From the NCBI GenBank assembly GCA_030531205.1, contig JAUNOC010000004.1, forward strand, positions 1-64,000: 64,000 nt of DNA, read 5' to 3'. The position numbers were made by a program, and so were the translations under genes. Source of the DNA: Phascolarctobacterium sp. Lineage in GTDB: Bacteria > Bacillota > Negativicutes > Acidaminococcales > Acidaminococcaceae. A model generated the notes under the pieces. The model had not been told where the DNA came from, made no database searches, and saw only the letters and a list, made by a program, of their open reading frames with translations. Position 1 is the first letter of the stretch, and each line of letters opens with the position of its first letter. This document shows, piece by piece, positions 1 to 10,020 of this stretch.

Positions 1-349
1 CCGAGAAATTTGGGTTTGTCCAGCGAGGTAAAGGACCGTCTAAAGGAACATAGAAAGACGGTGGTGGGGTGAGCAATTACGATGACGCTAATGAAAAGAT
101 AAAAACTTAAAGCTTAAAGTTTATGAATGCTTCGCATAATGCAAAAACACCCGTCAATCTACCTATGTTCCTAACGATTGCCACCCTCTTCAAGAAGAGG
201 GAAAATCAGTTCGCATTGTGCGGGCTTTTCCTGAATCCTGAATCCTAAATCTTTTGCCCTGTTATTTAATTAACCGAACATCCTACTACAATTTTCCCAT
301 TTTAACTTTTAATTTTTATTTTTTCGTTGTGTAGTTTTAGTGTATTTTG
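1..349. repeat. Non-coding repeat debris upstream of hsdR
   Basis: No gene is supported here. Positions 33-79 are identical over 47 bp to 60615-60661. The block has a short stem (ACCGTCT with AGACGGT) around a GGAACATA core. Around 165-200 there is a further 'ATGTTCC' fragment followed by a CCCTCTTCAAGAAGAGGG palindrome. These match the dispersed repeat families described elsewhere in the window. Confidence 0.6.
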
Positions 350-358
350 TGTTATAAT
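350..358 (+). promoter_or_regulatory. Extended -10 promoter for hsdRMS
   Basis: TG at 350-351 precedes a perfect TATAAT at 353-358. No good -35 hexamer lies 17 bp upstream, as is usual for extended -10 promoters. The hsdR start at 393 follows about 28 nt after the expected transcription start, with a GGAG site at 383-386. Confidence 0.55.
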
Positions 359-392
359 AACAATGACTATATACTTTTGTATAGGAGCGATT

Positions 393-2702
393 ATGCCGGA
401 AGATGATTTGACCATGAACAAGTGGAGTGAGGAAGACATTAAGCGTCTTTATGTAACACCTGCTCTGGAAGCAAAATGGGACAAAATGAAAATATCTATG
501 GAAACACGCCCTTTTACCGCAGGCAAGATTAATCTTCAAGGTAATCTTGTTACCCGTGAGAAAGGTAAAAAGGCGGATTATTTCCTTTATACAACAGAGA
601 ACAAACCTATTGCGGTGGTGGAGGCAAAGGTAGCCGGCAAGTCCGTTGGTTTTGGTATGCAACAGGCGATGGAATACGCAAGAATGCAGGGGCTGAAATT
701 TGCTTACAGCACAAACGGCAGGGAGTTTTTGGAACACGATTTTCTCACTGGCACGGAACGCAAATTTTCTATGGATGCCTTCCCCACGGAGAAAGAATTA
801 TTGGCACGCCTGAAAGCGGCAGAAGTAATTACGGATGCAGAATTACAGATAGACAGCCAGCCCTTCTATACAGGTCAGAACAGTTATCCGCCCCGCTATT
901 ATCAACGGGATGCGGTGAACGCTATAACAGAGGCAGTTGCCCGTGGACAAAAGCGGGTTTTGATTACAATGGCGACCGGCACGGGCAAAACCTATGTAGC
1001 ATTCCAAACCATTTACCGCCTTTTGAATGCCGGAGTGGTTAAACGGGTGCTATATCTTGCAGACCGCAATGTTTTGGTTGACCAGTCCCTTGACAATGAT
1101 TTCCGCCCCCTGACAAAAGATTGCCACAAGATAAAAGTTTCCAAAGACAAGAAAAATAAACTCACCTCATATAAAATTTCATTTGCTCTTTATCAGCAGT
1201 TGGTTGGTGAAAAAGGTGAAAAGCATTACGAAAAATTATTTAAGCCGGACTACTTTGATTTAATTATTGTGGACGAGTGCCATCGTGGCAGTGCGAAAGA
1301 AGACAGCACTTGGCGGGAAATTTTGGAATACTTTGAGCCGGCATATCAACTTGGTATGACTGCCACACCCCGTGAAACCGCTTATGTTTCCAACATAGAT
1401 TACTTTGGCAAACCAGTATATACCTACAGTTTGAAACAGGGAATTGATGACGGCTTTTTGGCACCCTTCCGTGTTATTAATGTCCAGATGAATATTGGCG
1501 AAGGGTGGAGACCTGCATTAGGTCAGTTGGATGCCAACGGCAAACCCATTGAGGACAGAAATTATACTAACTCTGATTTTGACTATAACCTTATTCTTGA
1601 AGACAGGACAAGGGAAGTGGCAGAACGCATAACTGCCTTTTTGAAAGCCACCGACCGCATGGCAAAAACCATTGTCTTCTGTCCCACGGAAGAAGCGGCG
1701 GAAAGAATGCGTCAGGCACTGGTGAACGCCAACAGCGATATGGTAAAAGAAGACCCGGATTATGTGGTGCGGATTACAGGCAGTGACGATTATGGCAAAG
1801 GCAAACTCAAATACTTCCGCTCGGTAACTTCACAATATCCCGTAATAGCCACCACATCCAAACTCTTGTCAACCGGTGTGGACGTAAAAATGACCAAACT
1901 CATTGTCATTGACCAAATGATAAACAGCATGACGGAGTTCAAGCAAATCATAGGGCGGGGCACAAGATTGCAATATGAAAACGGCAAGCAATACTTCACC
2001 ATTATGGATATGCGGAATGTTTCCCGGCTCTTTGCCGACCCGGAGTGGGACGGGGATATTGTCCAAGACCCGAACTGGCCGCTCAAACCCGGCGAAACTG
2101 GTAAGCCGCCGCAAAAAGTTCCCGAAGGCAAACCCTATGTGACAGCGGAAGGATGCCAAGTAGTAACCATCCAGGAAACCATTTCCATTTATGACTCGGA
2201 CGGAAAATTACTGAAAAAAGAAAATATCATTGACTATACAAAAAGCAACATACTTGGTGAATATGCGGACTTGCAAAGTTTTATCCGCAGTTGGAGCACA
2301 GAAAAGAAAGGTGAAGAAATATCCAAACTCTTGGCAGAAAGAGGAATTAACCTGTTGGAAATCAAAGAAAAACAAAATATGTTGGATGTGGACGATTTTG
2401 ATTTTCTCTGTCACCTTGCCTATGACCAAAAACCACTTACAAGGCGTGAGCGTGCCAACAATGTGAAAAAACGGGACTTTTTGAACAAGTATAAAGGAGA
2501 TGCCCGTTTTGTGTTGGAGCAACTTTTGGAAAAATATAAAAACGAAGGCATCAGTGTAATTGAAGATGCCTCCGTACTGCACATGGACCCTTTCCGTCAG
2601 TTTGGCTCACCGGGCAAAATTGCCAAACTCTTTGGCGGGGCAAAGGGTTATCACGAAGCAATACAAGAATTGGAAAACGAAATTTATAAAATGGCGGTGT
2701 AA
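393..2702 (+). CDS. hsdR: Type I restriction enzyme, HsdR subunit
   Basis: Translocating and cleaving subunit of a type I restriction-modification complex with HsdM and HsdS; it acts on unmodified DNA in the cytoplasm. The 769-residue product has a PD-(D/E)xK nuclease core near the N-terminus (D62, E77, K79). A superfamily 2 helicase follows, with Walker A ATGTGKT at about 194-200, DECH at 294-297 and motif VI QIIGRGTR at 518-525. The length fits the shorter EcoEI-like HsdR subfamily. I chose ATG 393 over an upstream in-frame ATG because GGAG lies 6 nt before it and the promoter sits at 350-358. hsdM starts 4 nt after the stop, so the three genes form one operon. Confidence 0.95.
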   Translation: MPEDDLTMNKWSEEDIKRLYVTPALEAKWDKMKISMETRPFTAGKINLQGNLVTREKGKKADYFLYTTENKPIAVVEAKVAGKSVGFGMQQAMEYARMQGLKFAYSTNGREFLEHDFLTGTERKFSMDAFPTEKELLARLKAAEVITDAELQIDSQPFYTGQNSYPPRYYQRDAVNAITEAVARGQKRVLITMATGTGKTYVAFQTIYRLLNAGVVKRVLYLADRNVLVDQSLDNDFRPLTKDCHKIKVSKDKKNKLTSYKISFALYQQLVGEKGEKHYEKLFKPDYFDLIIVDECHRGSAKEDSTWREILEYFEPAYQLGMTATPRETAYVSNIDYFGKPVYTYSLKQGIDDGFLAPFRVINVQMNIGEGWRPALGQLDANGKPIEDRNYTNSDFDYNLILEDRTREVAERITAFLKATDRMAKTIVFCPTEEAAERMRQALVNANSDMVKEDPDYVVRITGSDDYGKGKLKYFRSVTSQYPVIATTSKLLSTGVDVKMTKLIVIDQMINSMTEFKQIIGRGTRLQYENGKQYFTIMDMRNVSRLFADPEWDGDIVQDPNWPLKPGETGKPPQKVPEGKPYVTAEGCQVVTIQETISIYDSDGKLLKKENIIDYTKSNILGEYADLQSFIRSWSTEKKGEEISKLLAERGINLLEIKEKQNMLDVDDFDFLCHLAYDQKPLTRRERANNVKKRDFLNKYKGDARFVLEQLLEKYKNEGISVIEDASVLHMDPFRQFGSPGKIAKLFGGAKGYHEAIQELENEIYKMAV

Positions 2703-2706
2703 TTAA

Positions 2707-4173
2707 ATGGGAAATTTGGGCGGATTAGTAAAAAACTTAAGAGATATTATGCGTAAGGATGCCGGCATAAACGGTGACGCACAACGCATTGAACAAATTG
2801 CCTGGATGCTTTTTTTGAAGGTCTATGACACCAAGGAAAGCGACTGGGAAATTGGGGAACGGAACTATGTGAGCATAATCCCTGAAGAATGCCGGTGGCG
2901 GAACTGGGCTGCCAACGAAGACGGCAAGGGCATGACGGGTGACGAACTTTTGGACTTTGTCAACAACAAACTCTTTCCCGCCTTGAAAAAATTGTCTGTG
3001 GATGCCACAACACCCATCCGCAAAGCCATTGTCAAGACCACTTTTGAAGACGCCAACCAATATATGAAGGACGGCGTGCTTTTGCGTCAGGTTATCAATA
3101 TAATAGACGAAATAGATTTGACGGACAACGAACAAAGCCACCTTTTTGGGGAAATCTATGAGAGCATTTTGCGAGAATTGCAAAGTGCAGGCAGTTCCGG
3201 CGAGTTCTACACACCCCGTGCGGTGACGGACTTTATGGCGAAAATGATACAACCCAAGATAGGCGAAAAAATGGCGGACTTTGCCTGCGGTACGGGTGGC
3301 TTTTTAACCAGTTGGCTGAAACAAATAGAGTTTCAAGTTACCAACGGCAAGGAAAGAAACCAATATATTAACTCCGTATTTGGCATTGAAAAAAAGCAGT
3401 TCCCCTATATGCTTTGCGTAACCAATATGCTTTTGCATGATGTGGAAGTGCCGCAGGTCTTTCACGATAACGCATTGACAAAGGATGTGCTGGACTATAC
3501 GGAAAAGGACAAGTTTGATGTAATTCTTATGAATCCGCCCTATGGCGGCAGTGAAAATGCGGATATTAAAAACCATTTTCCTACGGAATTAATGAGCAGT
3601 GAAACCGCAGACCTTTTTGTGGCTTTGATAACCTACCGGCTGAAGAAGAACGGCAGGGCGGCGGTCATCTTGCCGGACGGCTTTTTGTTCGGTGACGACA
3701 ACGCCAAAACCAATATCAAAAAACGCCTTTTGAAAGAATTTAATTTGCATACCATTATCCGTATGCCCGGGTCGGTATTTGCACCTTATACTTCAATTAC
3801 CACAAACATTCTGTTTTTTGAAAATAACGGCACGGGTACAAAAGAAACTTGGTTTTACCGCATGGATATGCCGGAAGGTTACAAGCATTTCAGCAAGACC
3901 AAACCTATGAAACTTGAGCATTTTGCACCGGTGGAGGAGTGGTGGAAGAACCGGCAGGAGATTGAAGTGGAGGGTTTTTCCAAAGCGAAAAAATTTACCA
4001 AAGAAGAATTGGAAGCACTGGGTTACAATTTTGACCAGTGCGGCTTTCCCCATGAAGAGGAAGAAATTCTGCCTCCGGCGGAACTGATTGCCAAATATCA
4101 AAAGGAACGGGGCGAGGCAAACGCCAAGATTGATGCCGTGTTGCAGAAGATAGAGGATTTGTTGGGCAAATGA
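2707..4173 (+). CDS. hsdM: Type I DNA methyltransferase, HsdM subunit
   Basis: N6-adenine methyltransferase subunit of the same type I system; it protects host sites using S-adenosylmethionine. The 488-residue product starts with an HsdM N-terminal helical domain (about 1-140). The SAM-binding motif FACGTGG is at about 192-198, and the adenine-methylase motif NPPYGG is at 276-281. The C-terminal helical tail (about 430-488) usually contacts HsdS. It lies between hsdR and hsdS, and its stop overlaps the hsdS start (ATGATGA), which indicates translational coupling. No damage to any motif is visible. Confidence 0.96.
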   Translation: MGNLGGLVKNLRDIMRKDAGINGDAQRIEQIAWMLFLKVYDTKESDWEIGERNYVSIIPEECRWRNWAANEDGKGMTGDELLDFVNNKLFPALKKLSVDATTPIRKAIVKTTFEDANQYMKDGVLLRQVINIIDEIDLTDNEQSHLFGEIYESILRELQSAGSSGEFYTPRAVTDFMAKMIQPKIGEKMADFACGTGGFLTSWLKQIEFQVTNGKERNQYINSVFGIEKKQFPYMLCVTNMLLHDVEVPQVFHDNALTKDVLDYTEKDKFDVILMNPPYGGSENADIKNHFPTELMSSETADLFVALITYRLKKNGRAAVILPDGFLFGDDNAKTNIKKRLLKEFNLHTIIRMPGSVFAPYTSITTNILFFENNGTGTKETWFYRMDMPEGYKHFSKTKPMKLEHFAPVEEWWKNRQEIEVEGFSKAKKFTKEELEALGYNFDQCGFPHEEEEILPPAELIAKYQKERGEANAKIDAVLQKIEDLLGK

Positions 4174-5591
4174 TGACACCGGAGCAACTGAAAAACAGCA
4201 TATTGCAACGTGCCATTGAGGGCAAACTTGTACCGCAAATTGAAGGCGAGGGTACTGGTGCGGAGTTGTTGGAAAAGATAAAAAAATCCCCCCTGCCCCC
4301 CTTTAAGAAAGGGGGCAAAAACCCCTGCCCTTCGGGCATCCCCTTTACGAAAGGGGACAAGGTTAAGAGGAAAGAGAAAGTGGCTTGCCCTCTTTGTAAA
4401 GAGGGGGGACCGCTTGCGGTGGGTGATTTCCCCTTTGCCATACCCAAAACTTGGGTGTGGTGCAGGTTGGGGGAAGTTGTTCAAAAAAAAATAAAGAGAG
4501 GCAAATCACCTCAGTATACACTTAAAAGTAATACAATGGTTTTTGCACAAAAATGTAATACTAAAGATGGTTACATAGATATGACATTAGCTTATTTTTT
4601 GGATGAATCTAAGTTGTCAAAATATGACAAGCAAGAATTTATGTGTGATAGTGATGTTGTTGTTAATTCAACTGGTACAGGCACTATGGGCAGAGTCGGT
4701 TTTTTTAATGACTGTGATAGAATAAATAATATGCAGATTGTTCCAGATTCACATGTTACTATCATTAGGGTAAATAGTGATTGTTTTGCGAAGTATGTAT
4801 TTTATGTACTAAAAAATAGTCAAAAAATATTTGAAAAAAATGGCGATGGTTCTACAAATCAAAAAGAATTAAAGCCAGATTTTTTAAGTGATTTTCTCAT
4901 CCCCCTCCCGCCCCTTGCGGAACAGAAACGCATTGTGGCGAAGTTGGAAGAGTTGTTTCCCTTGGTGGATGAGTATGCGGAGGCATACAACAAACTGCAA
5001 ACCCTCAACAGCAAATTTCCCCTTAACCTCAAAAAATCCCTGTTGCAGTACGCAATGGAAGGCAAACTTGTACCCTGCGACACAAGTAAGTGGAAACAAG
5101 TGAAGTTGGGGGATGTGTGCGAAATAAATGGTGGATATGCTTTTAAAAGCACAGATTATGCAGAAAAAGGTATACGGATAGTTCGTATTTCAGATTTTAA
5201 TGAAATAGGTTTTATTGACTGTAAAATTGTGAGATGTGAGTTTAAAAAAGAATACGAACAGTACATATTGCAAGAAAAAGATATATTACTATGCATGACA
5301 GGTGGAACAGTAGGTAAATCTCTATTTGTCCGAAAATTGCCTGAAAATATGGTGGTTAATCAACGAGTTGCTACCATAAGAGCTATTAAAATAGTTCCAG
5401 AATATTTAAATTATGTAATTATTTCTCCTTTAATTCAAAGAATAATAGAGGATAGCAAGAATTCAACAAATGATAATATTTCTATGAAAACAATAAGGGA
5501 TTTTCCTGTTCCCCTCCCGCCCCTTGCGGAGCAGAAACGCATTGTGGCGAAGTTGGAAGAACTGCTGCCATTGTGTGAGGAGATAGGATAA
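4170..5591 (+). CDS. hsdS: Type I specificity subunit HsdS with a translated repeat insert
   Basis: DNA-recognition subunit of the type I system. The 473-residue protein has the usual two target-recognition domains (about 88-245 and 310-455). Each is followed by a conserved helix beginning PLPPLAEQKRIVAKLEEL, and the phrase EGKLVP occurs before each half. Residues 39-86, in the linker before the first recognition domain, are unlike HsdS. They read SPLPPFKKGG and then a Cys/Pro/Lys/Gly-rich stretch, encoded by several GC-rich palindromes (see the repeat at 4287-4425). The frame stays open, so the gene is probably functional. The recognition domains are AT-rich compared with the conserved parts, as expected for horizontally exchanged domains. 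Start at 4170 or the adjacent ATG at 4173. Confidence 0.94.
   Translation: MMTPEQLKNSILQRAIEGKLVPQIEGEGTGAELLEKIKKSPLPPFKKGGKNPCPSGIPFTKGDKVKRKEKVACPLCKEGGPLAVGDFPFAIPKTWVWCRLGEVVQKKIKRGKSPQYTLKSNTMVFAQKCNTKDGYIDMTLAYFLDESKLSKYDKQEFMCDSDVVVNSTGTGTMGRVGFFNDCDRINNMQIVPDSHVTIIRVNSDCFAKYVFYVLKNSQKIFEKNGDGSTNQKELKPDFLSDFLIPLPPLAEQKRIVAKLEELFPLVDEYAEAYNKLQTLNSKFPLNLKKSLLQYAMEGKLVPCDTSKWKQVKLGDVCEINGGYAFKSTDYAEKGIRIVRISDFNEIGFIDCKIVRCEFKKEYEQYILQEKDILLCMTGGTVGKSLFVRKLPENMVVNQRVATIRAIKIVPEYLNYVIISPLIQRIIEDSKNSTNDNISMKTIRDFPVPLPPLAEQKRIVAKLEELLPLCEEIG
4287..4425 (+). repeat. Palindromic repeat element inserted in frame within hsdS
   Basis: Three hairpins in a row lie inside the coding sequence: GCCCCCCTTT with AAAGGGGGC at 4295-4316, a TGCCCTTCGGGCA hairpin near 4326-4338, and CCCTCTTT with AAAGAGGG at 4388-4407. 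The last is followed by GGGGACCG and CGGTGGGTG, the same arrangement as in the intergenic R2 blocks near 10104 and 34621. It is translated as residues 39-86 of HsdS without a stop. Confidence 0.75.
4902..4951 (+). repeat. Direct repeat in hsdS, copy 1
   Basis: This 50-bp stretch encodes the conserved PLPPLAEQKRIVAKLEE helix after the first recognition domain. It matches 5511-5560 with one visible mismatch, exactly 203 codons apart. Confidence 0.85.
5511..5560 (+). repeat. Direct repeat in hsdS, copy 2
   Basis: Second copy of the repeat at 4902-4951, after the second recognition domain. Recombination between the copies would remove or exchange one recognition domain while keeping the reading frame. 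Confidence 0.85.
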
Positions 5592-5776: not shown

Positions 5777-6169
5777 ATGCCGTTAAAATTTACCCGTGAA
5801 CAAATTGAAAAGGTTTTAGAAAATGCCAAGCGGCTTGTGCAGGGCGGGGCTTATTCTATTTCCCCAAGGGATAAAAATATGATGTTTACGGATGAATATA
5901 ATTTGACGACAGATAAATTTAAAAAGATTTTTTTGGATATTGCTGTGGAGGATTTTCATACTGCAGAATACAATAATAATGACAGATTTAGTCCGGATGA
6001 TGTTTGTTATATCTTTGTGCCTCAGGTAATGCTGGCCGATGTGTCTGGGGATCTAAAACATCATAATGTGTATGTTAAATTTGTTCTTGTAGTGAGAAAG
6101 ATTAGTGATGCTGTCATTGTAATTTCTTTCCATGAGGCAGAGCAAAGTGTGAATTACCCTTTTCGTTAG
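5777..6169 (+). CDS. MqsR-like toxin (putative)
   Basis: Putative toxin of a type II toxin-antitoxin pair, 130 residues. MqsR-family toxins are ribosome-independent mRNA interferases. Family assignment rests on the pattern of the protein: an N-terminal helix REQIEKVLENAKRLVQGG, a middle helix ending in EDFHTAE (compare the EDFY/DFYKS region of MqsR), and a C-terminal strand pair VYVKFVLVVR...VIVISFHEAE that resembles the last strands of MqsR. It is somewhat longer than E. coli MqsR (98 residues). The next gene encodes an MqsA-like zinc finger protein, which supports the call. Toxin-first order is the one found in mqsRA. Activity is inferred, not shown. Confidence 0.6.
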   Translation: MPLKFTREQIEKVLENAKRLVQGGAYSISPRDKNMMFTDEYNLTTDKFKKIFLDIAVEDFHTAEYNNNDRFSPDDVCYIFVPQVMLADVSGDLKHHNVYVKFVLVVRKISDAVIVISFHEAEQSVNYPFR

Positions 6170-6197
6170 TTTGAATAGATGAAGAGGAGTGAGGAAA

Positions 6198-7187
6198 ATG
6201 GAAAAGGTTTTTTGTGAAAAATGTAATGATTTTGCGGACTTTGTAATTACTAATGTCCGTAAGGAAGGTACTCTAAAGGGTCTGAAATATGAGTACTGGG
6301 GCAAAGAAGCCCATTGTAAGGCGTGCGGCGAGGTTGTGTTTGTGCCTTTTGTACATGACTGTAACCTTAGGGCTTTACATAATGAATACCGCCGTAAGAA
6401 CGGGATTATTCCTTTGGAAAAGATTTATGGAATTTTAGACCGTTACAAAATTGGTCGCCGTCCTTTGTCCTTAATGCTGGGCTGGGGGGAACAAACTTTT
6501 TCCCGTTATTGTGACGGGGAAATTCCTAAAAAGGAATATTCTGACCAGTTGTTAAAACTGTATGAGGATGTTCGTGAATTCAATAAGTTATTGGAACAAA
6601 ATAAGAATTTATTAAATTCTGAGGTGGCATACAAGAAGGCAAAGAGGGCGGTTGAGGAATTGCTGGTTTTGGAAAATGATTCGGCTTCCAAACTTATGAT
6701 AGTGGCAAAATATATTTTGCATTATTGTGATGAAATAAGCCAGCTGGCACTTCAAAAGTTGCTTTATTATATTCAGGGTTTCAGCTATGTTTTTAATGAT
6801 GAATTTATTTTCACGGAGGATTGTGAGGCATGGGTGCATGGTCCTGTTTATCCTGATGTTTATAATGAATATGGTAATCGTGGGTTTAATATTATTCGTG
6901 AATATACTTCGGTTAATCCTTCTTTGATTCCGCCGGATGAGAGGATAGTTATTGATACTGTTGTTCGGTATTTTGGTAAGATGAAAGCAAAGCAGTTGGA
7001 GGAGTTCACTCATATTGAAAAACCTTGGTTACAGGCAAGAGGGGGGATGGATGTGGATGCCCGCAGTGCTAATGTTATTTCTAAAAAAAGTATGAAAGAT
7101 TATTTTGGGCTGATTAAAAACAGATTTGAAATGAAAGAACCTGATGACATTGTCAAGTATATTGATATGCTGATTGAGGCAACATAA
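6198..7187 (+). CDS. Antitoxin: MqsA-type zinc finger and HTH fused to a Panacea domain
   Basis: Predicted antitoxin and autorepressor, 329 residues. Residues 1-60 carry two CxxC pairs (FCEKC near 6-9 and HCKACG near 39-42), as in MqsA and related zinc-finger regulators. Residues about 85-125 form an HTH with the MqsA-like phrase LMLGWGEQTFSRYCDG. Residues about 165-329 match the Panacea/SocA-like (DUF4065) domain: ALQKLLYYIQGFSYV, then EAWVHGPVYPDVYNEY. Panacea domains are known to neutralise many unrelated toxins. ATG 6198 is preferred over GTG 6189 because of the GAGG just upstream and because it begins at the zinc finger. It lies 28 nt after the toxin and is probably cotranscribed. Confidence 0.7.
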   Translation: MEKVFCEKCNDFADFVITNVRKEGTLKGLKYEYWGKEAHCKACGEVVFVPFVHDCNLRALHNEYRRKNGIIPLEKIYGILDRYKIGRRPLSLMLGWGEQTFSRYCDGEIPKKEYSDQLLKLYEDVREFNKLLEQNKNLLNSEVAYKKAKRAVEELLVLENDSASKLMIVAKYILHYCDEISQLALQKLLYYIQGFSYVFNDEFIFTEDCEAWVHGPVYPDVYNEYGNRGFNIIREYTSVNPSLIPPDERIVIDTVVRYFGKMKAKQLEEFTHIEKPWLQARGGMDVDARSANVISKKSMKDYFGLIKNRFEMKEPDDIVKYIDMLIEAT

Positions 7188-7424: not shown

Positions 7425-7532
7425 ATGTTATTGTTAAACAAAAATTTCTTGATTTGGAGGGAACTCATATATGAACAAAATAATTTTAGAGGCAAGGTGC
7501 CCAAATTGCGGACGCTTGTTATTCAAGCATAA
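7425..7532 (+). CDS. 35-residue leader ORF overlapping the zinc-ribbon gene (doubtful)
   Basis: A short frame begins at ATG 7425, behind one of the strongest Shine-Dalgarno sites in the area (AAGGAGG ending at 7416). It overlaps the first 62 nt of the Com-like gene in another frame. The product (MLLLNKNFLIWRELIYEQ and onward) has no recognisable family. Its value may be translational coupling to the next gene rather than the peptide itself. Confidence 0.3.
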   Translation: MLLLNKNFLIWRELIYEQNNFRGKVPKLRTLVIQA

Positions 7533-7653
7533 GGGTGGTAAATTTCTTATTGCTTTGTACACACAAAATACAGAACTTATTTCTGGTGATGAACTTCATA
7601 AGTGTACAAAATGCAAATCACCAATTTTAGTCAGGCAAAAGTCAATAGTGTGA
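7471..7653 (+). CDS. Com-like zinc-ribbon protein
   Basis: A 60-residue protein with two zinc knuckles, CPNCGRLLFK near the N-terminus and CTKCKS near the C-terminus. The spacing and the CxxCGRLLFK phrase resemble Com-family proteins, small zinc-binding regulators best known from phage Mu, where Com activates translation of mom. No mom gene is visible here. A GGAGGG site lies about 8 nt before ATG 7471. It is followed by a strong terminator and then by a cassette opening with a phage-like sigma factor, so it may be a regulator linked to that cassette. Function is inferred from the motif only. Confidence 0.55.
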   Translation: MNKIILEARCPNCGRLLFKHKGGKFLIALYTQNTELISGDELHKCTKCKSPILVRQKSIV

Positions 7654-7690
7654 TTCAATAAATCCGACACTGGATGGGCTTTATGACACC

Positions 7691-7740
7691 AAAGCCAGGC
7701 GGTAACAGATTTTTCTGTTACTTGCCTGGCTTTTTCTTTT
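7691..7740 (+). terminator. Terminator after the Com-like gene
   Basis: A long stem (AAAGCCAGGC plus GGTAACAGA pairing with CTGTTACTTGCCTGGCTTT, two G-U pairs) is followed by TTTTTCTTTT. An upstream GGCTTT at 7678-7683 could pair with the AAAGCC that starts the stem, a possible but unproven antiterminator. Confidence 0.8.
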
Positions 7741-7743
7741 GCC

Positions 7744-7809
7744 AATAACGGTATCAGCCGTTATTAAATAAATACGGACTACGCCGGCGTAGATTAGGCA
7801 GTACTGCCT
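7744..7809. promoter_or_regulatory. Three consecutive inverted repeats upstream of the sigma-factor gene
   Basis: AATAACGG/CCGTTATT at 7744-7765, the perfect 14-bp palindrome CTACGCCGGCGTAG at 7779-7792, and the perfect 14-bp palindrome AGGCAGTACTGCCT at 7796-7809. They differ in sequence. They fill the region between the preceding terminator and the ribosome-binding site at 7834-7839, so they may be operators or mRNA hairpins. Confidence 0.6.
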
Positions 7810-7844
7810 TCTGTAAAAATTTTTAGTTTTTGCAGGAGGTAAAT

Positions 7845-8423
7845 ATGCAAAATTCTACTTGTAGTCAAACAAATTTTTCTGAACTGCTGAAAGCGGCTCA
7901 GAACCACGAACAGTCCGCAAGGGATGAATTAGGGGTAATGTATATGCCATTAATTGAGAAAATTGCCAACAGGCATAATTATGCTTTATATCTTGGTGAA
8001 GATGCAGTAGGGGATGCCTCTGAGGCATTTACTCATGCTATGGATGCATTTGATGGCAACGATCAAAAAATCTTTGAAAATTATGCTTGCAGATGTATCT
8101 ATAATCATCTTGACCGAAAGATGCGGTGTAATTTTGAGCGGGCAAAAGTTGAAACCTTGCCGGACGAGAAATTTCAGTTTCCTGAACAGGAATATTTGCC
8201 TGAGTTTGACAAGCGGCTTTTATTTGATGTAGTAAGACCTTTATTATCAGATAAACAGTTTGCGGTGTTGTATCCTATGGTAACGGAATGTTTGACGGTA
8301 ACTGAGGTTTCCAAACGTTTGGGTTTGAGCAGAAAAGGTGTTTATAAACATCTTGATGCGGCTCGGAAAATTTTAAAGGATGTCCCTGTGGTTAGGGAAA
8401 TGATTGGCGATTATCAACAGTGA
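7845..8423 (+). CDS. Phage-like sigma-70 family factor
   Basis: A 192-residue protein with the two-domain layout of small sigma factors. A region-2-like helical domain (about 25-95) contains the YLGEDAVGDASEAFTHAMDAFDG stretch, equivalent to the DLxQEAxxxxxxAxxxFD core helix. A C-terminal region-4 HTH (about 150-185) reads LTVTEVSKRLGLSRKGVYKHLDAARKIL. ATG 7845 has a perfect AGGAGG five nt upstream and is preferred to the upstream TTG. It is followed at once by a terminator, so the genes after it need their own promoter, possibly one read by this factor. Alternative: a sigma-like regulator without promoter-opening activity. Confidence 0.75.
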   Translation: MQNSTCSQTNFSELLKAAQNHEQSARDELGVMYMPLIEKIANRHNYALYLGEDAVGDASEAFTHAMDAFDGNDQKIFENYACRCIYNHLDRKMRCNFERAKVETLPDEKFQFPEQEYLPEFDKRLLFDVVRPLLSDKQFAVLYPMVTECLTVTEVSKRLGLSRKGVYKHLDAARKILKDVPVVREMIGDYQQ

Positions 8424-8431
8424 TTGCCAGA

Positions 8432-8470
8432 ATTTTGGGAATGTGGACGCACATTCCCAAAATTTTTTAC
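8432..8470 (+). terminator. Terminator after the sigma-factor gene
   Basis: A perfect 15-bp stem (8432-8446 with 8451-8465) with GACG loop is followed by a T-run. It uncouples the sigma gene from the downstream DUF1659 operon. Confidence 0.85.
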
Positions 8471-8559
8471 AAAGGGGGTAACACTTTTCAAAAAAAATGA
8501 CTATGTATAGGGTGAAGGCCCCAGTGAGGTACCGACAGGCGGTTTTCAAATTTGCAAAG
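8471..8559 (+). promoter_or_regulatory. Leader/promoter region of the DUF1659 operon
   Basis: No consensus sigma-A hexamer pair is visible here, although an operon must start in this gap. GGGGGTAACACTTTT at about 8474-8488 and TATGTATAGGG at about 8501-8511 are the candidate blocks for an alternative-sigma promoter. A GC-richer segment follows (8513-8545). This is an inference from position. Confidence 0.35.
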
Positions 8560-8575
8560 AAAGGAGAAAAAGATT

Positions 8576-8809
8576 ATGGCAGTTACTTCTACTCTTGTGA
8601 ACCGTACTTTGACTTTGGCTTTGAACGCCGGCACAACCGTTGCGGGCAACGCAAAAGTTAAAAACCGTAGTTTCACAAACATCAATCCCGAAAGTGATGA
8701 TGCGGCACTATTTTCTACCGCCAACACTTTGGCAGGTTTGATGGCAAATACACTGACAGCGGTGTATTTCAATGAGAAATCTTTGTTAAGTAATGTTGAA
8801 AATGCATAA
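8576..8809 (+). CDS. DUF1659 family protein
   Basis: A 77-residue protein matching the pattern of DUF1659 small proteins of Firmicutes: MAVTSTLVNRTLTLAL, then a repeated beta/alpha pattern ending LTAVYFNEKSLL. There is no signal peptide and no membrane segment. Function is unknown. ATG 8576 follows AAAGGAG at 8560-8566. It begins the second part of the sigma/amidase cassette and is followed after 21 nt by the next small gene. Confidence 0.75.
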   Translation: MAVTSTLVNRTLTLALNAGTTVAGNAKVKNRSFTNINPESDDAALFSTANTLAGLMANTLTAVYFNEKSLLSNVENA

Positions 8810-8830
8810 GCATAGAAAGGAGATTTGCAG

Positions 8831-8998
8831 ATGAACAAAGATTTGAAAAACCTGTTGCAATTAGTAATTAAGGCAGGTATTGAACAGGGCATACTTGGCG
8901 GCAGCAGCCGTGTGTGTCGCAAACAGAGAACCAAAGCGAATCGGAACGGGGAGGACTCGTTCCCTACGGCAGAGGAAAATTTTAAGAAAGGAGAATAA
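8831..8998 (+). CDS. 55-residue hypothetical protein of the DUF1659/DUF2922 cassette
   Basis: A short frame from ATG 8831 with GGAG about 8 nt upstream. The N-terminal half is helical (MNKDLKNLLQLVIKAGIEQG). The C-terminal half is basic and then acidic and looks disordered. I recognise no family. The ribosome-binding site of the DUF2922 gene lies inside its last codons, so the two are probably coupled. Confidence 0.6.
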   Translation: MNKDLKNLLQLVIKAGIEQGILGGSSRVCRKQRTKANRNGEDSFPTAEENFKKGE

Positions 8999-9003
8999 GG
9001 ATT

Positions 9004-9237
9004 ATGGAAACTGTTACTTTGGTCTTGGTGTTTTTGGACAGCGAGAATAATGAAAAGTCCATCACCATTAAAGACCCCAAAATGGATTTGTCTTTGGAAG
9101 AAGTTACGGATGCTATGCAGGAAATTATTGATAGCGATGCTATCCTGACTGCGGCAGGCAATCACTTGCAAACTGTGTCCCAATGCTATTACAAGACAGT
9201 AACTATCACCCGCCCCGAACCGGAAGACGGGGAGTAA
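9004..9237 (+). CDS. DUF2922 family protein
   Basis: A 77-residue protein with the DUF2922 pattern: a first strand TVTLVLVFLDSENNEKSITIKDPK, a helix EVTDAMQEIIDSDA and a final strand. Function is unknown. It commonly accompanies DUF1659 proteins in Firmicutes, and it does so here. ATG 9004 follows AAGGAG at 8987-8992. The next gene starts 19 nt after its stop behind GAAAGGAG. Confidence 0.75.
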   Translation: METVTLVLVFLDSENNEKSITIKDPKMDLSLEEVTDAMQEIIDSDAILTAAGNHLQTVSQCYYKTVTITRPEPEDGE

Positions 9238-9256
9238 TTTGAAAGGAGTTTAGATT

Positions 9257-9817
9257 ATGTTAGTGCGAAATGTTAAACAGGTTTCAGCAGAGGAATTGCT
9301 GAAGATGGCAGAGGCGGCGAGGGGGAAAATCAATACGATTTTCCTCCACTGGACTGCTTGTGCTTATGGTCAGGTGTTTGATGATTATCATTTGTGTATT
9401 GGTAAAGATGGTAATATTGATGCACCTTCAGAGATGTTTGATTTGGCAGAGGTTAAAGCCCATACTTGGATGAGAAATGCTGGAGCGGTGGGAATTGCCA
9501 TTGAGGCGGCACGGGGTGCTAAAATTGATGGTGAATGGACGATTAACTATGGTAAGAAATCGCCACCCACAGAGGAACAAATCAAAGGTTTGGCTTTGGC
9601 AGTTGCCATCATTTGCAAGGGAGCAGGTATTCCTATTGATAAGGATACGGTAATGACTCACGCAGAAATTGCGGATGTGGACGGTTACGGGGTTTATGAC
9701 ACTGACCCGGATATGAGATGGGATTTGCTCCGTTTGCCTTTCGCTTCCGGTGTCAGCGGAGGAGAGTATATCCGCAGTTTGGCTTCCGCCAAACTGGAGG
9801 ATATAGAGAAAAGATAA
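9257..9817 (+). CDS. N-acetylmuramoyl-L-alanine amidase, Amidase_2/PGRP type
   Basis: Predicted zinc amidase that cuts the bond between N-acetylmuramic acid and the first L-alanine of peptidoglycan. The 186-residue product shows the expected elements: LHWTA near residue 31 (first zinc histidine), a middle VGIAIE strand, and MTHAEI near residue 139 (second histidine) followed by DTDPDMRWDL. No signal peptide is visible, so it would need another way out of the cytoplasm, as phage endolysins do. It is followed by a YvrJ-type membrane peptide, an arrangement reminiscent of an endolysin/holin pair. That reading is an inference. Confidence 0.8.
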   Translation: MLVRNVKQVSAEELLKMAEAARGKINTIFLHWTACAYGQVFDDYHLCIGKDGNIDAPSEMFDLAEVKAHTWMRNAGAVGIAIEAARGAKIDGEWTINYGKKSPPTEEQIKGLALAVAIICKGAGIPIDKDTVMTHAEIADVDGYGVYDTDPDMRWDLLRLPFASGVSGGEYIRSLASAKLEDIEKR

Positions 9818-9840
9818 AAGAGATAAGATAAGGAGGAAAA

Positions 9841-9987
9841 ATGGAACTGAATGAAATTTTGCAGAGTGCCAGTAATTATGGTTTTCCTATGCTGATAAGT
9901 TGCTATTTGCTTGTGCGTATGGAAAACAGGATGAATGAACTGACGGAGGCACTGAACAAACTTTGTGTGGCGTTGGAACACAAATAA
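9841..9987 (+). CDS. YvrJ-type small membrane protein (holin-like)
   Basis: A 48-residue protein, MELNEILQSASNYGFPMLIS and onward, with one hydrophobic segment (about 13-26) followed by an amphipathic helix rich in Leu and Glu. This is the layout of YvrJ-family and BhlA-like small proteins. AGGAGG lies 5 nt before ATG 9841. It is the last gene of the cassette and is followed directly by a terminator. Membrane location is predicted; a holin role is speculative. Confidence 0.7.
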   Translation: MELNEILQSASNYGFPMLISCYLLVRMENRMNELTEALNKLCVALEHK

Positions 9988-10020
9988 AAAAAGCCCTGTG
10001 CGAAAGCATGGGGCTTTTTT
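9986..10020 (+). terminator. Terminator closing the sigma/amidase cassette
   Basis: AAAAAAGCCCTGTGC pairs with GCATGGGGCTTTTTT around a GAAA tetraloop. Confidence 0.9.

Follow-up and report, generated by a model that had tools for sequence, protein, structure and literature searches.

This report concerns a cassette of seven small genes at positions 7471-9987 of the window, that is, of the whole 64,000-nucleotide stretch of Phascolarctobacterium DNA analysed here, which makes up the opening 64 kb of contig 2 in a genome of 1.33 Mb. All seven genes lie on the + strand, in the order Com-like zinc ribbon, sigma factor, DUF1659, 55-residue peptide, DUF2922, Amidase_2 and YvrJ. Genes were called from open reading frames (ORFs) throughout. 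An earlier note on this DNA had named the same small genes, divided them by three strong terminators and seen no capsid, tail, integrase or replication genes among them. Every named gene is recovered on the + strand, folding recovers the terminators, and the interval 7471-9987 is indeed devoid of those four classes of phage gene. The features are as follows.

7471-7653, + strand: Com-like zinc ribbon with two CxxC motifs; weak match to PHROG gpCom (E 0.0095)
7691-7733, + strand: terminator between the zinc ribbon and the sigma factor (-30.1 kcal/mol, z -7.0 against shuffles)
7848-8423, + strand: candidate switch, a small factor of the sigma-70 family that has regions 2 and 4 (TIGR02937, 46.3 bits, cut-off 42.9)
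8429-8466, + strand: terminator 3′ of the sigma factor (z -7.1 against shuffles)
8576-8809, + strand: DUF1659 (PF07872, 64 bits, cut-off 24.1)
8831-8998, + strand: 55-residue peptide without a family match; it has a homologue in locus L047
9004-9237, + strand: DUF2922 (PF11148, 60.2 bits, cut-off 25.5)
9257-9817, + strand: signal-less, endolysin-like Amidase_2 (PF01510, 34.8 bits, cut-off 26)
9841-9987, + strand: YvrJ, a one-helix holin-like protein (PF12841, 55.4 bits, cut-off 29.5)
9987-10020, + strand: terminator closing the main operon (z -7.5 against shuffles)

All three terminators were overlooked by a simple terminator scan and were detected by shuffle-based folding. They split the region into three parts, namely the zinc ribbon, the sigma factor and a main operon (8576-9987). 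Because one of them stands between the sigma factor gene and DUF1659, the main operon is expected to be transcribed from a promoter of its own. The zinc ribbon gene is its own transcription unit, whose position is kept in a congener, and the ATG at 7425 starts an out-of-frame ORF that overlaps it. Many clostridial cassettes also carry a double-CxxC zinc ribbon (about 75 residues, without a Pfam match), located between DUF2922 and YvrJ (L073, L076, L083, L088, L092, L099, L126, L161 and L191), which differs from the one upstream of the sigma factor in the window's genus.

The core of the cassette is widespread in the phylum. Among 299 phylum genomes, DUF1659 was found in 158, DUF2922 in 157 and YvrJ in 132, largely in the same genomes. 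In 54 of 60 loci from the phylum sample, the three genes follow one another as DUF1659-DUF2922-YvrJ on one strand, and the same pattern was seen in 80 further named loci, mostly from Clostridia. Contig scans used narrower alignments of DUF1659 and YvrJ, since broad ones proved too diverse for this purpose. A recurring setting of this triad reads metK, sigma factor, DUF1659, DUF2922, YvrJ, a ComK-like gene, recD2, comFC, yvyF, flgM, flgN and flgK, with the flanking genes named by sequence inspection except where Pfam was run. It is an old chromosomal neighbourhood, and part of it is present in the window's relatives from other families of its class.

In viral collections, by contrast, the components are rare. 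One YvrJ query gave 432 confirmed places in bacterial genomes; among 2.9 million viral contigs, two scans gave only 3 and 6, with search patterns that differed somewhat. DUF2922 had no match in the viral contigs, while the sole match of DUF1659 was spurious, as it fell inside a protein of 426 residues. Phage records yielded one weak DUF1659 match with the window's protein as query and none with a central member of the family; a clostridial YvrJ did not match any of the named phages, and no near relative of the window's amidase was found in IMG/VR. The flanks of the cassette were also free of recognisable phage genes, which is not the setting of a prophage lysis cassette: type I restriction genes HsdR/M/S (327-5591) and a Panacea/MqsA-type gene lie upstream, and the housekeeping genes for TrmK, NIF3, an HD protein, a nitrilase and MurB lie downstream. 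In the upstream interval 5777-7187, a gene for a 130-residue protein without a named family precedes that of the MqsA-like/Panacea (SocA-type) protein; the two, which adjoin the restriction genes, probably form a defence or toxin-antitoxin pair.

Some genomes carry more than one cassette. Several copies per genome were seen in G004, G018, G008 and G039 (L050-L056, L060, L061 and L064-L067), some of them more than 90% identical in G018, G004 and G008; in G018, identity stops at the yvrJ stop codon. Copies are often at contig ends, and no transposase was seen. Three Paraclostridium plasmids (NZ_CP094939, NZ_CP094935 and NZ_CP080292; L224-L226) have their own DUF1659-DUF2922-YvrJ copies, two of them within one strain, and one plasmid triad adjoins a divergent amidase gene.

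Closer to the window, both the gene content and the gene order recur in another genome of the genus (L047), where the gene upstream of the sigma factor likewise encodes a zinc ribbon, of 63 residues and similar to the window's. The 55-residue peptide was found in this genus only. In pairwise comparison of the two loci, YvrJ is the most conserved protein (90% identity) and the sigma factor the least (38%). For every cassette gene, the nonsynonymous rate (dN) is lower than the synonymous rate (dS), although, with several dS values saturated, this points only roughly to purifying selection. Given the repeated gene order and dN below dS throughout, the cassette is not a chance array. The window's own genome contains, on contig 12 (L068, 243-1387), a second amidase (81% identical) and a second YvrJ (96%) without DUF1659 or DUF2922, for which dN is still below dS. 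The sequence between these two genes resembles dispersed repeats that are also present near 60.3 kb of the window.

Wall hydrolases accompany the triad more often than they occur in its wider surroundings. A total of 159 triad loci was compared, about 10 of which are the same place fetched twice; since loci were picked by YvrJ or DUF1659 matches, all figures from this set are conditional on that choice. In 65 of the 159, a peptidoglycan hydrolase of the Amidase_2, Peptidase_M15 or Amidase_3 type is encoded on the same strand within 2 kb. Counting flank genes of at least 100 residues, hydrolases make up 63 of 518 genes near the triads, compared with 3 of 702 in distant flanks. The three families are unrelated to one another and their slot varies: it precedes DUF1659 in most of the window's family, falls between DUF2922 and YvrJ in the window's genus, and is 3′ of YvrJ in Clostridia. 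Unrelated enzymes in different slots argue for a functional link rather than inherited adjacency. As would be the case for endolysins, 64 of the 65 lack an N-terminal hydrophobic stretch, with hydropathy standing in for signal-peptide prediction. The window's amidase itself matches the PHROG endolysin family phrog_5867 with 108.8 bits (E 3e-31).

YvrJ, in turn, is related to a phage family annotated as holin, phrog_4898. This family is matched by 15 of 16 diverse YvrJ members (best E 4.4e-10), the window's own YvrJ reaching E 0.004 only. The seven viral YvrJ-like proteins also match it without exception, though weakly in two cases. Five of the seven viral contigs place the YvrJ-like gene directly before a lysin gene, with four lysin families represented (Phage_lysozyme, Amidase_2 twice, Glucosaminidase and Peptidase_M15_3). 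Capsid or connector genes of the phi29 type are present in two of these five contigs and in one other.

Within the module, no two genes are coupled more tightly than DUF1659 and DUF2922, with 147 adjacent pairs and a median gap of 39 bases, and in some genomes they are found without YvrJ. Their AlphaFold models both have a beta-beta-alpha-beta arrangement, with a predicted local distance difference test score (pLDDT) of 84 for DUF1659 and 65 for DUF2922. A paralogous origin was considered and set aside, as their similarity is weak (hhalign probability 23-33%). Among solved structures, no meaningful sequence relatives of either family were found, and fold searches with the two models gave no significant match to solved folds. 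The top structural neighbour of DUF1659 was phi29 p6 (Z 5.1); this lead is not used as evidence because profile-profile comparison gave it no support. In a holin-type module, the roles that would best fit the pair are those of a cargo or a gatekeeper.

Two kinds of putative regulator are encoded beside the triads. A small sigma factor adjoins 42 of the 159, and a ComK-like protein, the commoner neighbour and the more frequent one in Clostridia, adjoins 64. The term ComK-like is a family-level reading because Pfam ComK recognises only 6 of 22 such proteins (best E 4e-6). In the window's family, the sigma factor is kept and the ComK-like gene is absent: a profile built from the cassette-linked proteins found none in the window's own genome or in any of the 25 genomes of the family that were searched. 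The window's sigma factor is a single protein aligned over positions 2-162 of the 165 of TIGR02937, and, as regards the UviA/TcdR group, its match is a general sigma-70 one only. Although sigma factors accompany a minority of triads, it is plausible that this one switches on the rest of the cassette, as the earlier note proposed. In Bacillus subtilis, yvrJ is transcribed by the alternative sigma factor SigO-RsoA (PMC8103513). This control, together with the sigma and ComK-like neighbours, tentatively suggests that the module is normally silent until a dedicated regulator activates it.

Upstream of the sigma factor gene there are two perfect palindromes, at 7779-7792 (CTACGCCGGCGTAG) and 7796-7809 (AGGCAGTACTGCCT); L047 has two at the equivalent place, with different sequences. 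As RNA, this region folds no better than shuffles (z -1.2). A home-made expectation-maximisation search for a sigma-specific promoter motif returned output dominated by the T-runs of terminators, and ComK-type boxes upstream of the cassette did not discriminate. A truncated glycosyltransferase-like membrane protein (about 135-165 residues) recurs upstream of the sigma factor in L087, L035, L074, L037, L203 and L188.

On the strength of sequence comparisons, we lean towards reading the cassette as a bacterial, vertically inherited, non-prophage lysis or release module of the holin/endolysin type, with a dedicated switch and with DUF1659 and DUF2922 as cargo or gatekeepers. In such a module, expression of the operon 8576-9987 would be triggered, here probably by the sigma factor next to it and in many Clostridia by the ComK-like activator. 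DUF1659 and DUF2922, produced just ahead of YvrJ, would act as a matched small pair, either released as cargo or guarding YvrJ. YvrJ would accumulate in the inner membrane and let the signal-less amidase through to the cell wall. The opening of the wall would then either kill and empty part of the population or let out cytoplasmic material. The resemblance of amidase plus YvrJ to endolysin plus holin, which the earlier note had pointed out, is well supported by the phrog_4898 matches, the viral neighbours and the associated hydrolases. Likewise, its idea of a domesticated device rather than a prophage fragment agrees with a cassette that is widespread in chromosomes and nearly absent from viral collections, and the co-occurrence search that it called for finds the three small genes clustered phylum-wide in non-prophage settings. 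No support was found for the sporulation-type remnant that it also entertained.

Several observations weigh against this interpretation. The word holin in phrog_4898 is an annotation label, and YvrJ members did not match the BhlA/UviB Pfam family at E values up to 0.1. Phage astrithr and two of the viral contigs have no lysin gene next to the YvrJ-like one. Furthermore, no hydrolase was seen in the examined stretch of 94 of the 159 triads; it may be out of view in incomplete loci, encoded elsewhere or unneeded. Finally, to our knowledge, known lysis cassettes have no place for DUF1659 and DUF2922.

A broader claim, which we make tentatively and hold at somewhat less than even confidence, is that these loci represent an undescribed, vertically inherited and phylum-wide lysis or release module, in which the DUF proteins are cargo or gate, YvrJ is the holin, the lysin slot is taken by whichever hydrolase is available and the switch is of the sigma or ComK type. 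Among the papers searched, those that name YvrJ, DUF2922 or DUF1659 include none whose title or abstract concerns a DUF1659-DUF2922-YvrJ operon.

Among the alternatives, the one that survives best, albeit as an unlikely one, is a competence module under ComK-like or sigma control, in which the hydrolase and YvrJ would either breach the wall so that DNA can be taken up or free DNA by lysing siblings. The ComK-like neighbours speak for it, as do comFC and recD2 close by in many Clostridia, and genes for ComEA, ComEC, ComFC and type IV pilus ATPases are present in the window's own genome. Nevertheless, comFC and recD2 share an ancient chromosomal setting with metK and flagellar genes, so that their proximity may simply be inherited; most of the ComK-like proteins escape Pfam ComK, the gene is missing from the window's family, and the upstream ComK-type boxes are not discriminating.

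It is also improbable, to a similar degree, that the device centres on the DUF pair, with DUF1659 and DUF2922 forming a two-part released product (a public good, a bacteriocin-like agent or a surface protein) for which YvrJ and the hydrolase provide the exit. The pair is the most tightly kept part of the module and can occur without YvrJ, and an exit made of sigma factor, holin and amidase is known for a protein cargo (PMC9527704). However, such breadth and conservation would be unusual for a bacteriocin, and both proteins could equally be cytoplasmic regulators.

Non-lytic wall remodelling, for example during envelope stress or development, with YvrJ as only a membrane anchor or hydrolase regulator, is less likely still: SPOR domains are present on some cassette hydrolases (L144 and L111), and in B. 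subtilis, which lacks the DUF pair, YvrJ is part of a stress regulon under sigma control, but the phage relatives of YvrJ occupy lysis positions and a signal-less hydrolase needs some export route. A decayed prophage fragment is very improbable and was rejected, as the phage-related YvrJ and amidase, and a contig 12 copy reduced to these two genes with repeat-like sequence between them, are set against an operon conserved across the phylum, dN below dS in the comparison with the congener, flanks free of phage genes, and DUF families almost absent from viral collections.

If the locus is indeed a lysis or release module, many anaerobes would own a built-in, regulated means of opening their own wall. 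DUF1659, DUF2922 and YvrJ, three uncharacterised families carried by about half of the sampled phylum, would acquire a common and testable role. The finding would bear on the ways in which folded proteins, DNA or public goods get out of cells when the usual export routes are not used, and on the conversion of phage lysis genes into bacterial tools.

Several known systems share part of this arrangement. The phi29-like phages (L132, L135, L137 and phage astrithr) have a homologous small membrane protein, encoded directly before the lysin in L132 and L135. Unlike in the cassette, no DUF1659 or DUF2922 was found there and virion genes surround the YvrJ-like gene, which in astrithr and L137 sits between the packaging ATPase and connector genes. 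Type 10 secretion is release that depends on a holin and endolysin, as for the Serratia chitinases. As far as the parts list goes, the cassette is alike in that one bacterial operon combines a small membrane protein and a wall hydrolase lacking a signal. It differs in its proteins, in a parts list without a recognised cargo and in the adjoining sigma or ComK-like gene. The SigO-RsoA regulon of B. subtilis also places a yvrJ gene under an alternative sigma factor (PMC8103513), but that factor has two subunits whereas the window's is one protein, and a control search of B. subtilis gave no DUF1659 or DUF2922 match.

The nearest known arrangement is UviA-UviB-amidase, in which UviA (a sigma factor), UviB (a one-helix holin of the BhlA type) and an amidase serve bacteriocin release in Clostridium, the amidase being divergent or within the operon (PMC9527704). 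The cassette likewise has, as neighbours, a sigma factor, a holin-like protein with a single helix and an amidase without a signal. Nevertheless, YvrJ has no BhlA/UviB Pfam match and no bacteriocin gene was recognised in the cassette. Because there is no such match and no evident cargo or secretion, the cassette is not filed under UviA/UviB or type 10 secretion. What sets it apart from UviA/UviB is, in addition, the extra and constant DUF1659/DUF2922 pair, together with its chromosomal location and its distribution across the phylum.

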